Shown: one piece after another, positions 33,081 to 39,206 of the stretch
Layout: the number at the start of each line of letters is the position of its first letter
Position numbering within the stretch: the first letter of the stretch is position 1
DNA from: an uncultured Pelagibacteraceae bacterium
GTDB lineage: Bacteria; Pseudomonadota; Alphaproteobacteria; Pelagibacterales; Pelagibacteraceae
Length of the DNA stretch: 64,000 nucleotides
Assembly: GCA_902600485.1 (NCBI GenBank)
Contig: CACKJD010000004.1
Coordinates: 37,137-101,136 of the forward strand
Direction: 5' to 3'
Notes under the pieces: model-generated
The model's database searches: none
What the model saw: the letters and a program-made list of their open reading frames with translations, nothing else
What the model was told of the DNA's origin: nothing
Program-made: the position numbers and the translations under genes

Positions 33081-33368
33081 ATGACAATTGATCTTAAAAC
33101 AGTAAAGCACATATCTAAATTATCTAGGATTTCAATCGATGATAATAAAGCTAAAAAATTAGGCAAAGATTTAAATTCAATTTTTTCTTTTATTGAAAAA
33201 TTAAATGAATTAGATACAAAAAATACTGAACCATTAACCTCAATTGCTGAAACTACATTAAAACTACGTAAAGACGAGATAAAATCTGAAAATATTCGTG
33301 AGGATATTTTAAAAAATTCACCAGACAAAAATAAAGATTTTTTTGTTGTGCCTAAGGTAATTGAATGA
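33081..33368 (+). CDS. gatC: Asp/Glu-tRNA(Asn/Gln) amidotransferase subunit C
   Basis: TVKHISKLSRISIDDNKAKKLGKDLNSIFSFIEKLNELDTKNTEPL; order gatCAB. Confidence 0.95.
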   Translation: MTIDLKTVKHISKLSRISIDDNKAKKLGKDLNSIFSFIEKLNELDTKNTEPLTSIAETTLKLRKDEIKSENIREDILKNSPDKNKDFFVVPKVIE

Positions 33369-34825
33369 TGAGCAATATAACAGATTTAAAATTAGTTGAA
33401 CTTGTAGACAAAATTAAAAAAAAAGAATTATCGTCATCCGAGGTAACTATTGCTTTTATTGAAAGATCAAAAAAATCAAAAAAACTTAATGCTTATATTT
33501 CTGAAAATTATGAAAATGCAATTAAAAAAGCAAAAATATTTGATCAAAAACCAGACTTTAAAAAAAAATTACCTGGTATACCTATTGCTGTAAAAGACTT
33601 GTTTTGTACAAAAAATATTAGAACTACAGCCGGAAGTAAAATTCTTGAAAATTTCGTTCCAACTTATGAATCAACAGTAACTCAAAATATTTTAGATGAA
33701 GGAGGTATTGTAATTGGAAAGTTAAACTGTGATGAATTTGCAATGGGTTCTTCTAATGAAACAAGTTATTTTGGGAATGTTCAAAATCCAGTATCTGAGA
33801 ATTTAGTACCTGGTGGATCTTCTGGTGGATCATCATCAGCAATTGCTGCAAAATTAACTCCAGCAACAATAGGTACAGATACAGGTGGATCTATTAGACA
33901 ACCAGCGTCCTTTACTGGTACAGTTGGTTTAAAGCCAACATACGGTAGTTGCTCAAGGTATGGAATAGTAGCATTTGCATCATCTTTGGATCAAGCAGGA
34001 CCCATGACTCATGATGTCAAAGATTGTTCTTTGATGTTAGAAATTATGAGTACTTACGATACAAAAGATTCAACTTCTGTTGATTTCAAAAGAGAAAATT
34101 ATTTAACTAATTTAAATGAGAATATTAAAGGAAAAAAAATAGGCATACCAAAAGAATATAGAGTTGATGGAATGCCAAAAGAAATTGATGAACTATGGGA
34201 AAAAGGAATAAAAATTATTAAAGAAAATGGAGGTCAAATTATTGAGATAAGTTTACCTAATACCAATTATGCTTTACCAACATATTACATAGTAGCTCCT
34301 GCAGAAGCCTCATCAAATCTTGCTCGATACGATGGTGTAAAATATGGTTTTAGATCAAAAGGTGAAAATCTTATAGACATGTACGAAAAAACAAGATCAG
34401 AGGGTTTCGGTGATGAAGTAAAGCGAAGAATTATGATTGGAACATATGTTTTATCATCAGGTTATTACGATGCATATTATTTAAAAGCACAAAAAGTAAG
34501 AAGACTAATCAAAAATGATTTTGATGAGGCTTATAAAAAAGTAGACGCTATATTAACTCCATCTACGCCAAGCTCTGCTTTTAAGATTGGAGAGAAATTA
34601 AACGATCCAGTATCAATGTATTTGAATGATATTTTCACAGTTCCAATTAATCTTGCAGGCTTACCTGCCATATCAATTCCAGCGGGTCATGATAAAAAAG
34701 GCTACCCACTAGGTTTGCAAGTTATTGGAAAGGCATTTGATGAACAAAGTATTTTAAATATCGCATTTGCTTTAGAAAAAAATATAAGCTTTAAAAATAA
34801 TATAACTGATTGGTGGATTAAGTGA
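33365..34825 (+). CDS. gatA: Asp/Glu-tRNA(Asn/Gln) amidotransferase subunit A
   Basis: Amidase signature [38 protein letters not shown]. Confidence 0.98.
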
Positions 34826-36288
34826 GTAAAAATAATGGTGAATATCTAATAATAAGAAATGATAACAAATATGAAGTTATTATTGGTCTTGAAGTTCATG
34901 CACAAGTCTTATCTGAGTCTAAATTATTTTCAACTTCATCAACAAAATTTGGATCAGAACCTAATACTCAAGTTAGCTTGGTCGATGCAGCATTTCCAGG
35001 AATGTTACCAGTAATTAACGAACATTGTATTAAACAAGCTGTTAAGACAGGTATTGGATTAAAAGCTAAGATTAACAAAAGATCAATATTTGATCGAAAA
35101 AATTATTTTTATGCTGATTTGCCTCAAGGTTATCAAATTTCTCAATATAAAGATCCAATTGTGGGCGAGGGATCTGTTACATTAGATATGCCTAATGGGG
35201 AAAAAAATATTGGTATTGAAAGACTTCATTTGGAGCAAGATGCAGGAAAAAGTATCCATGATATAGATCCTCAAAACACATTAGTTGACTTAAATAGATC
35301 AGGCGTAGCTCTAATGGAAATAGTTAGCAAACCTGATTTAAGATCTTTAGATGAAGTAAATGCATATATTAAAAAATTAAGATCTATAATGAGATATTTA
35401 GGAACTTGCGATGGTAATATGCAGGAGGGCTCATTAAGAGCTGATGTAAACGTTTCTGTTCGAAAAAAAGGAGATAAAAAACTAGGCACTAGATGTGAAA
35501 TTAAAAATGTCAATTCTATAAAATTTATGCAAATGGCAATAGATTTTGAAGCTAATCGTCAAGTAGATATAATTGAAGAGGGTGGCTCTATTGATCAAGA
35601 AACAAGATTATTTGATACCAAAAAAAATGAAACAAGATCTATGAGATCTAAAGAAGACGCACATGATTATAGATATTTTCCTGATCCTGACCTTTTACCG
35701 CTTGAATTAAATGATAATTATATAGATCAAATAAAAAAAAATATTCCTGAGCTTCCTGATGAAAAAAAGAAAAGATTTATTGAAAAATTTAAACTATCAC
35801 CTTATGAAGCAAATATACTAGTTTCAGACATTGAAATTTCAAAATATTTTGAGGAAGTTTCAAAAAACTCTGATGTAAAATTAGCTACAAACTGGATAAC
35901 AGGAGAGTTATTTGCATTATTAAACGAAAAAAATATTGAAATAACAGAAAGTCCAATTTCCTCAAAAAATTTATCAAAATTAATTAATTTAATCAAAGAT
36001 GGAACCATTTCAGGCAAGATTGCTAAATCTGTGTTTGAAATAATGAGAGATGGGGATAAAGATCCAATAACTATTGTAGAAGAAAAAGGTTTAAAACAAC
36101 AAAGTGATCCTAAGGAATTAGAAAATTTAATTAATAAAGTAATTATTGAAAACCCAAAAAATGTTGAAGCTTATAAATCAGGAAAAGATAAATTATTTGG
36201 TTTTTTTGTTGGTCAAGTAATGAAAAATTCAAATGGTAAAGCAAATCCTAAACTTGTTAATGAAATTTTGAAAAAAAAATTGAATTAA
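34822..36288 (+). CDS. gatB: Asp/Glu-tRNA(Asn/Gln) amidotransferase subunit B (GTG start)
   Basis: [38 protein letters not shown]. Confidence 0.98.
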
Positions 36289-36289
36289 A

Positions 36290-36946
36290 ATGGGTTCAAA
36301 CATTAAGATTACAAACGAACTCGAAGAATATATAAACAATCATTCTTATAAACTAAATCCGATTCAAAGAGAGATTATTAAATATAACAAAACTTTGGGT
36401 GAAATGAAAAAAATGCAAATTTCATTAAGTCAATGTCATCTATTACACCTAATAATAAAATTATATAATCCAAAAAAAATTTTAGAAATTGGAACATTTA
36501 CAGGTTTAAGTGCTTTAACAATGGGATTAGCTATGAATAATGATTCAAATTTAATAGCTATCGACAAAAACAAACAAACTTCTGAAATGGCTAAAAATTT
36601 TTTTATTAAAGCTAATCTTGAAAACAAAATAAATCTTTTGGTAAAAAATGCCATTGATGGACTAGATGAGCTTATTAAAAGCAAAGAAGTTTTTGACTTA
36701 GTATTTATTGATGCTGACAAGGAAAATTATATAAATTATTTTGAAAAATCTTTAAAAATGTTAAAAAAAACAGGGATAATTATAACAGATAATGTTTTAT
36801 GGTACGGTGACGTTATAGATAAAAATAAAAATGACAATCTTACAATTAAAATTCGAGAATTTAATTCGTATATTGATAAAGACAATAGAGTAGAAAATAT
36901 CATTTTACCAATTGGCGATGGTTTATCAATTTGTAGAAAATTATAA
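36290..36946 (+). CDS. class I SAM-dependent O-methyltransferase (COMT/CCoAOMT-like, TrmR-like candidate)
   Basis: 218 aa; KKILEIGTFTGLSALTMGLAM, LVFIDADKENY, IIITDNVLWYGDV, ILPIGDGLSICRK. Confidence 0.88.
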   Translation: MGSNIKITNELEEYINNHSYKLNPIQREIIKYNKTLGEMKKMQISLSQCHLLHLIIKLYNPKKILEIGTFTGLSALTMGLAMNNDSNLIAIDKNKQTSEMAKNFFIKANLENKINLLVKNAIDGLDELIKSKEVFDLVFIDADKENYINYFEKSLKMLKKTGIIITDNVLWYGDVIDKNKNDNLTIKIREFNSYIDKDNRVENIILPIGDGLSICRKL

Positions 36947-37845
36947 TGTATAATATTTTTGGTTTTTACAAATTTAAAAAGATTATAAATCTTAAAAAGA
37001 AAAAGGAATTACTTGATAATTACCTAAAACAAGAAAATTTTAGAGGGACTATAATATTATCCCCAGAAGGTGTAAATGGAACTATAAGCTTTAAAATTGA
37101 TAGGTATATTTCAATAAAAAAAAATATAAAAATAATTTTAAATTTAAAGAACTTTGATAGCGAAAATTTATCACATTATAAATATCAAGCTTTTCACAAA
37201 GGTAAAATTAAAATTAAAAAAGAACTTGTTCCTATTGGTATTAAATTAAAAAAAAGAATTATTAATAATCAAATTGATCCTGAAAATTGGAATAATTTTA
37301 TTAAAAAAAAAAATACTGTCATTATTGATACAAGAAAAAGTTTTGAATTTAAAGTTGGTACTTTTAAAGGATCAATAAATCCAAAACTGAATAATTTTAG
37401 AGACTTTCCAAAATATTTTAAATCATTAAAAAAAAATAATAACATAGGCATGTTTTGTACCGGTGGTATTAGGTGTGAAAAGGCAAGTTTTTATTTGAGA
37501 AATAAAGGTTTCAAAAATGTTTATCAATTAAATGGAGGTATCATTAATTATTTAAATAAAATTGATAAAAAAAAAAGTTTATGGAAAGGTGATTGTTTTG
37601 TCTTTGACAATAGAGTATCGGTAAAACATGGCCTAAAACCTGGCAATTTAAAAATTTGTGCTGGTTGTAGAGAACCTATTACGAAGTTAGAAAAAAAAAA
37701 CAAGCAATATGAGGAAGGAGTTAGCTGTTCTAATTGTTTTCATAAATTAACTGATAAACAAAAACAAAGATTCCGTATGAGACAAAAACAAATCAACCTA
37801 TCTAAAAAAAAAGGTCAAAAATATTTTTATCAAATTGAAAAATAA
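36946..37845 (+). CDS. trhO: rhodanese-domain tRNA uridine(34) hydroxylase, TrhO/YceA family
   Basis: LSPEGVNGTISF N-domain, rhodanese loop MFCTGGIRCEKAS, C-terminal Cys-rich CAGCREPI...CSNCFHKL. Confidence 0.92.
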   Translation: MYNIFGFYKFKKIINLKKKKELLDNYLKQENFRGTIILSPEGVNGTISFKIDRYISIKKNIKIILNLKNFDSENLSHYKYQAFHKGKIKIKKELVPIGIKLKKRIINNQIDPENWNNFIKKKNTVIIDTRKSFEFKVGTFKGSINPKLNNFRDFPKYFKSLKKNNNIGMFCTGGIRCEKASFYLRNKGFKNVYQLNGGIINYLNKIDKKKSLWKGDCFVFDNRVSVKHGLKPGNLKICAGCREPITKLEKKNKQYEEGVSCSNCFHKLTDKQKQRFRMRQKQINLSKKKGQKYFYQIEK

Positions 37846-37850
37846 ATAAT

Positions 37851-39206
37851 ATGTACAAAAAAATTAATTTGTTAAGAGATCCAATTTGGCCATTATTAAG
37901 AAAAGTAACAATTCCTGCTAGTATAGGATCATTATTCCAAACTTTTTATAATTTAGTTGATACTTATTTCGCTGGTAAAATATCACCTGAAGCTCTTAGT
38001 GCTTTGGCTAAATCTTTTCCAATATATTTTATAATAATTGCAATTGGTGTTGGAGTAGGTGCTGCTACAAATACCTTAATCGGAAATTCAATTGGTGAAA
38101 AGAATGAAAAAAGAGCATCAATGTTTGTTGGCCAATCTTTTCTATATGCTGTTTTCGTTTCACTTTTAGTCACCTATGTTGGTTTAAATATTTCAGATTT
38201 TTTATTGGGACTAATGGGATCTAGTTTAGAAAATATTTTATTAACAAGAGAGTATCTTGATATAATATTTTACTGCACTGTTTTAGTTTTAATACAAACA
38301 TCTTTAAATGGCACCCTAAATGCTCAAGGAGATACAAAGAGTTACAGAAATGTTTTAGTTTTTACCTTTTTTTTAAACATAATCTTAAATCCTATATTCA
38401 TATTTGGATATGGTTTTATACCTGCCTTCGGTATTTCTGGAATTGCTATAGCAACCGTTATATGTCAATTTTTAGGTGCAACTTATTTAATTTACAAAGT
38501 TTATTGTTGTAAATTAAAAAAGTATCTATTTTTTGAATGCTTTAAACCAAAAATTTTTTACTTTAAAAACCTAATATTTCAATCTGTTCCAGTTATGTTT
38601 AGTATGCTTTTAATTGGTGTCGGTTTATTTAATGTTTTATATTTTGTAGGAAAATTTGGTGATTTGGCTGCAGCTGGTTATGGCACTGCTTTAAGAATTG
38701 AACAAGTCTTTTTGTTACCAGTTATTGGATTAAATACAGCAGTACTATCTATCTCAAGTCAAAATTTTGGAGCTAAAAATTATGGGCGGATTAGAGAATT
38801 ATATTTAAAAGCTCTCAAATTTGGTTGTTCTTTTATGACATTAGCAGGTATCATAATTTATTTTAATGCATCATTCCTCATAAGTTTATTCACAGAAGAT
38901 TTGAATACAATTAGTTATGGTACAATTTATTTAAAAATTGCAGCTTTAATAGGTCCGATTTATCCCACTTTCTTCATAACAACAGCCTTATTTCAATCAG
39001 TAAAAAGGCCAATATATAGTTTGTACCTTGGTATCTTAAGATTAACGGCTCTACCATTTTTATGTTTATGGTATGTAATAAATATTAAAGATGGATCATA
39101 TGAAGATATTTTCTATACTTTATTATTTACTAATTGGTTTATGGGATTTTGCATATTAATCTTTATTGGATCTTTTTTTAATGCAGTTTTTAAAAAAACT
39201 AGTTAG
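37851..39206 (+). CDS. MATE-family efflux transporter
   Basis: 451 aa, multi-TM; PASIGSLFQTFYNLVDTYFAGKISPEALSALAKSFP; NTLIGNSIGEKNEKRA. Confidence 0.93.
   Translation: MYKKINLLRDPIWPLLRKVTIPASIGSLFQTFYNLVDTYFAGKISPEALSALAKSFPIYFIIIAIGVGVGAATNTLIGNSIGEKNEKRASMFVGQSFLYAVFVSLLVTYVGLNISDFLLGLMGSSLENILLTREYLDIIFYCTVLVLIQTSLNGTLNAQGDTKSYRNVLVFTFFLNIILNPIFIFGYGFIPAFGISGIAIATVICQFLGATYLIYKVYCCKLKKYLFFECFKPKIFYFKNLIFQSVPVMFSMLLIGVGLFNVLYFVGKFGDLAAAGYGTALRIEQVFLLPVIGLNTAVLSISSQNFGAKNYGRIRELYLKALKFGCSFMTLAGIIIYFNASFLISLFTEDLNTISYGTIYLKIAALIGPIYPTFFITTALFQSVKRPIYSLYLGILRLTALPFLCLWYVINIKDGSYEDIFYTLLFTNWFMGFCILIFIGSFFNAVFKKTS

Follow-up and report, generated by a model that had tools for sequence, protein, structure and literature searches.

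Does the candidate O-methyltransferase (OMT) encoded directly upstream of trhO in a SAR11 genome complete the modification of the tRNA wobble uridine that TrhO begins, and is this enzyme a TrmR? TrhO makes ho5U34 with O2, and TrmR methylates ho5U34 in Gram-positives (PMC6599085); the original prediction read the gene pair in this light, as a hydroxylase coupled to a methylase from the broad family to which TrmR belongs. The window, i.e., the whole 64,000-nucleotide stretch of DNA analysed here, belongs to a source genome of 1.09 Mb that is 95.8% complete, and the closest loci to it (93% identity) come from single-cell genomes of uncultured Pelagibacteraceae (SAR11).

The gatCAB-OMT-trhO locus

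All genes of the locus are ORFs on the forward strand. The run opens with gatC (33081-33368, named from its sequence and kept along with the run), followed by gatA (33365-34825, conserved in synteny) and gatB (34822-36288), which stands directly 5' of the OMT gene in almost all relatives. A single base separates the gatC/gatA/gatB run (33081-36288) from the OMT gene (36290-36946, ATG start, 218 aa), and the corresponding gaps in relatives are mainly 1-5 nt. The OMT gene and trhO (36946-37845, ATG start, 299 aa) overlap by 1 nt in the sequence TAATG (36944-36948), where the final A of the OMT stop codon TAA (36944-36946) is the first base of the trhO ATG, exactly as originally described. A MATE-like transporter gene (37851-39206) starts 5 bases past the end of trhO. 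The ORF listing of the window also contains an antisense 94-aa ORF within the OMT gene, which is taken as mechanical.

The earlier naming of trhO holds as well: its product passes the NCBIfam equivalog model NF001133 with 246.5 bits (cut-off 170), and this curated model identifies it as the oxygen-dependent tRNA U34 hydroxylase. The protein consists of the UPF0176 N-terminal domain (PF17773), a rhodanese domain (PF00581) and a C-terminal CxxC...CxxC segment; Cys171 (37456-37458) lies in the rhodanese active loop CTGGIRCE (in the window protein, FCTGGIRCE), and the loop is identical in every TrhO row inspected. Compared with TrhO (YceA), the window protein is an ordinary member with nothing notably different.

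The tight coupling of the two genes is borne out among relatives. Among 125 distinct homologous loci, 120 have trhO directly 3' of the OMT gene on the same strand, and 91 of these 120 pairs also share the 1-nt overlap seen here; three of the five loci that lack a downstream trhO are contig or locus ends. The adjacency was confirmed in all six genera sampled, and dN/dS is about 0.09-0.18 for both genes. A peroxiredoxin-like gene takes the place of the MATE gene 3' of trhO in genera g5, g145 and g146, and because gene order past trhO varies among genera, the conserved unit is gatCAB-OMT-trhO, with the MATE gene outside it. At one locus (L188:3001-5843), MATE and trhO come after the OMT gene but lie on the other strand, which points either to an inversion of the downstream block or to a chimeric single-cell assembly.

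Within a sample of 37 relatives from the window family, the OMT gene and trhO are adjacent in all 29 same-genus genomes that hold either gene in full. The remaining eight genomes, with completeness of at most 86%, contain neither gene, and full gatB is absent from them too (no match in seven, an N-terminal fragment in one). In two nearly complete genomes without the pair, full gatB was likewise not found. In the order sample the OMT was found in 75 of the 77 genomes of the family. Because full gatB is missing as well, the absence of the pair most likely reflects assembly gaps rather than losses. Co-loss of the OMT gene and trhO in incomplete genomes was considered but is unlikely, since nearly all of these genomes are without gatB.

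As a baseline for the weight of synteny, we mapped 75 window genes onto 80 kb of two other SAR11 genera, in which 55 of 74 and 53 of 74 window neighbour pairs are kept. Because most neighbour pairs in the family are conserved, the adjacency of the OMT gene and trhO alone is modest evidence. Stronger evidence is provided by the contrast with the sister family of the order, where the genes after gatB are unrelated ones and trhO has a different location with other neighbours; in most genomes of that family no PF01596 protein was found other than a vertebrate-COMT-like one, which does not adjoin trhO. TrhO itself is common to both families by vertical descent, the TrhO of the window family being sister to that of the other SAR11-order family. 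Since the sister family is arranged otherwise while TrhO is vertically shared, a single event, no later than the ancestor of the window family, appears to have placed the OMT gene next to trhO. The methyltransferase of the sister family (L133-L136, L138-L140) has 210 aa and is most like vertebrate catechol OMT, with 115 bits to PDB COMT. Among other alphaproteobacteria there is no preferential co-occurrence of PF01596 and TrhO; both are found in about 18 of 153 genomes, where about 24 would be expected.

Affinities of the methyltransferase

The OMT matches Pfam Methyltransf_3 (PF01596, 200.7 bits), and its sequence classifies it as a class I cation-dependent O-methyltransferase of the caffeoyl-CoA-OMT (CCoAOMT)-like type. 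Its highest-scoring PDB entries are Coxiella 3tr6 (152 bits, 41% identity, matching fold) and the plant CCoAOMT-type 8gxo (141 bits), with Legionella 3r3h, Leptospira 2hnk and Synechocystis 3cbg among the further leading matches; B. subtilis TrmR (PDB 5zw3), about 31% identical, stands well down the list with 86 bits. An HMM of the CCoAOMT-like set scores the OMT at 243 bits, compared to 143 bits with the TrmR HMM. The AlphaFold2 model (mean pLDDT 93.2) finds 3tr6, 2hnk, 3cbg and SafC as best Foldseek matches, and TrmR is not among the top 50. By PDB bit scores and Foldseek alike, TrmR is not the closest characterised relative of the OMT. The TrmR references were anchored on a Listeria protein (215 bits to 5zw3) in the neighbourhood mltG-OMT-udk-greA, an order that we take to be that of B. 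subtilis yrrM; the Listeria TrmR relative adjoins these genes and not trhO.

Four residues are relevant to catalysis. The DADK motif supplies Asp141 (36710-36712), a predicted metal ligand, and Lys144 (36719-36721), the predicted general base by analogy with the COMT family, while Asp167-Asn168 (36788-36793) in TDNVLW are predicted metal ligands. All four are invariant over 31 SAR11 members, 45 CCoAOMT-like rows and 6 TrmR rows, and because of this invariance across all groups the OMT is expected to be catalytically active and metal-dependent. The original placement in the superfamily of TrmR (YrrM) of B. subtilis (PDB 5zw3/5zw4) therefore stands, as PF01596 and the metal and lysine residues are shared, but the implied closeness to TrmR finds no support. 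At alignment columns that split TrmR from CCoAOMT-like enzymes, the SAR11 OMTs agree with the CCoAOMT-like enzymes at 13 sites and with TrmR at two; for example, they have Asp143, Met42 and Trp171 where TrmR has Ala, Pro and Phe/Tyr. The TrmR states missing from the OMT are, in window numbering, Ala143, Pro42, Phe/Tyr171, Glu92, Gln146 and Phe150, and instead of the TrmR motifs DAAK, VPIM and DNVLF it has DADK, KMQI and DNVLW.

The segments quoted earlier as shared with TrmR are indeed present in both proteins, those of B. subtilis YrrM/TrmR being PKKILEIGTAIGYSA, IITDNVL and IPVGDGLAIS. Because the same segments also occur in OMTs of Coxiella, Legionella, Leptospira and cyanobacteria, they are marks of the superfamily (SAM and metal sites) rather than of TrmR. 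The motifs common to the OMT and the CCoAOMT-like enzymes are MQ..., EIGTFTG.SA, DADK.NY and DNVLW. The SAR11 OMT clade differs from these enzymes in residues of its own (Gln26, Gly37, Lys57, Cys215), in its N-terminal segment and in adjoining trhO, whereas trhO is not adjacent, where sampled, to the CCoAOMT-like enzymes (3tr6, 3r3h, 2hnk, 3cbg, SafC). Net positive charge of the OMT was considered as a sign of RNA binding and set aside: the values of the groups overlap and the genomes are AT-rich.

The trees are not decisive on the distance between the OMT and TrmR. In a tree of 109 rows, the SAR11 OMT clade (support 100/98) stands amid CCoAOMT-like enzymes with TrmR elsewhere, whereas in a tree of 40 rows TrmR is nested inside the SAR11 OMT clade on a stem of 1.94. 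An AU test with 77 rows does not reject a grouping of SAR11 OMTs with TrmR (p 0.717); with Dayhoff recoding the SAR11 OMT clade is retained (91) and is not joined with TrmR alone. We judged the nesting in the 40-row tree to be probably a long-branch and composition effect, because it is lost in the 109-row tree and upon recoding. OMTs of the Anaplasma type form a clade separate from the SAR11 OMT in the 109-row tree. A family-level survey assigns 'trmR' to alphaproteobacteria such as Ehrlichia (PMC6599085), assignments that may concern the Anaplasma-type OMT; labelling any PF01596 protein 'TrmR', as such surveys may do, is unsafe. Some small-genome alphaproteobacteria (L149, L147, L150) have a PF01596 OMT of the Anaplasma type (L149, 158 bits to 4pca). 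One relative of the window OMT, from Legionella adelaidensis (L164:1995-2654), has the genes for hppD and fumarylacetoacetate hydrolase as neighbours within a tyrosine-catabolism cluster.

Wobble tRNAs and the proposed pathway

The CmoA/CmoB pathway to cmo5U34 starts from ho5U34 too. In the source genome neither CmoA (best 25.4 bits, cut-off 193.3) nor CmoB (best 19.8 bits, cut-off 23.8) was found, which answers a check proposed with the original prediction; TrhP (peptidase U32) and a second PF01596 protein besides the OMT were not found there either. The accompanying suggestion that a CmoA/CmoB route might have been expected in an alphaproteobacterium did not hold up: a Caulobacter control has no CmoA above the cut-off and no CmoB match, and tRNA of the alphaproteobacterium Bartonella was found to contain ho5U34 but not cmo5U (PMC10965804). 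The 32 tRNA genes of the source genome include the six classical xo5U34 tRNAs with U34 (Ala UGC, Pro UGG, Thr UGU, Val UAC, Ser UGA, Leu UAG). Within this tRNA set, C34 partners were not found in any of the six boxes and G34 partners were not found for Ala and Pro. The Ala and Pro boxes each depend on a single U34 tRNA, and all six boxes are without a C34 back-up; consequently, a modified U34 matters.

Because the pair is conserved, CmoA, CmoB and TrhP are absent, the OMT is the sole PF01596 protein and the six U34 tRNAs are without C34 partners, we consider the pathway U34 to ho5U34 to mo5U34, carried out by TrhO and a CCoAOMT-like enzyme, to be the best explanation of the locus, and we hold it with about even confidence; in this respect the original prediction named the likeliest function. 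The OMT gene and trhO would be the wobble-modifying part of a translation operon, gatCAB-OMT-trhO. TrhO would use O2 to convert U34 to ho5U34 in the six NYN-box tRNAs listed above, and the OMT, using a divalent metal (held by Asp141, Asp167 and Asn168) and Lys144, would transfer the SAM methyl group to the 5-oxygen of ho5U34 to give mo5U34. We thus infer ho5U34 in tRNA as substrate and mo5U34 as product, so that the reaction following the U34 hydroxylase would be the same as that of TrmR and the end product the same as in B. subtilis, but reached via a CCoAOMT-like protein and not a recognisable TrmR. The chemistry has a precedent in the COMT-family enzyme Rv0187, which converts free ho5U to mo5U (PMC6543040), and Sakai et al. 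describe yceA(trhO)-trmR fusions in Phytophthora (oomycetes) and a diatom (PMC6599085); both support the mo5U34 reading. The non-TrmR candidate enzyme is what is new here, the methylation of ho5U34 itself being known. If the reading is true, the coupled hydroxylase and methylase identify how wobble bases are modified in SAR11, a dominant lineage and one of the most abundant groups of marine organisms, and mo5U34 is not tied to TrmR.

Alternative roles and the loss of trhO

One locus retains the OMT gene without trhO. In L205, a MAG titled ETNP 300 m, the gene order is gatB-OMT-MATE, and comparison with its relative L186 reveals that about 0.86 kb has been cleanly deleted (at L205:3600-3760), with the loss of nearly all of trhO, from the OMT stop to a short 3' trhO remnant before MATE; this is the evidence of one MAG, for this locus only, which lies near a contig end. 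The L205 OMT is still constrained, with a dN/dS of 0.10 towards relatives (four OMT pairs). Loss of trhO would fit oxygen-poor water, the hydroxylase being O2-dependent, and the retention of the OMT hints at a role that is not strictly tied to TrhO, at another source of ho5U, at a trhO elsewhere or at a recent deletion. L205 weakens strict coupling of the OMT to trhO. A wider version of the mo5U34 reading is more tentative: SAR11 would make mo5U34 by an OMT of the CCoA/catechol group, independently recruited in the family ancestor as a second, non-TrmR origin of the reaction, and low-O2 lineages could drop the O2-dependent hydroxylase while keeping the OMT, whose ho5U would then have to come from elsewhere.

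The mo5U34 reading is weakened by the CCoAOMT/catechol-like character of the OMT, as many members of that group act on small molecules, and by the finding that Rv0187 has no action on ho5U-tRNA (PMC6543040); the generally high synteny of SAR11, the case of L205 and the lack of preferential PF01596/TrhO co-occurrence across other alphaproteobacteria weaken it further. The enzyme type, the high synteny and L205 also suit a doubtful but serious alternative, namely that the OMT methylates a small catechol-like or CoA-linked molecule, owes its position to operon packing in a streamlined genome, and leaves TrhO to act alone on tRNA that ends at ho5U34, as reported for Bartonella. CCoAOMT/catechol-type enzymes lead the sequence, HMM and fold comparisons, and the Legionella relative beside hppD comes from the same region of the tree. 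What speaks against such a role is that no small-molecule pathway gene adjoins the OMT in the SAR11 genera inspected, where the upstream genes are translation genes, that streamlined genomes keep the OMT almost throughout, and that, judged against the sister family, its adjacency to trhO is the product of a rearrangement.

It is unlikely that the OMT methylates another macromolecule, such as a protein or some other site in RNA, and is only co-regulated with the translation genes upstream. Those genes and the persistence of the OMT in L205 are consistent with this idea, and protein substrates have been reported for a PF01596 enzyme of Anaplasma, in work cited by PMC6543040; but the Anaplasma-type enzymes are a separate clade, and in chemical terms ho5U offers the obvious catechol-like hydroxyl in this operon. 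Still more improbable is a true TrmR ortholog that evolved fast and kept residues of the superfamily type. The 40-row nesting speaks for it and the AU test is compatible with it, yet the very long TrmR stem, the splitting of the SAR11 clade that the grouping entails, its disappearance with more rows or recoding, the diagnostic sites and the HMM scores all stand against it. The original prediction had taken a place of the enzyme among CCoA/catechol OMTs, together with missing synteny with trhO in relatives, as grounds for rejecting a wobble module. The former is what we find; the latter is clearly not, with the reservation that the synteny is weaker than apparent because most neighbours in the region are equally conserved. 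As a minor observation, the PLSDB 'plasmid' records behind L160, L165, L167 and L296 (Acetoanaerobium, Neisseria, Prevotella and Fusobacterium), 1.8-2.6 Mb in size, look like chromosomes misfiled under that label.
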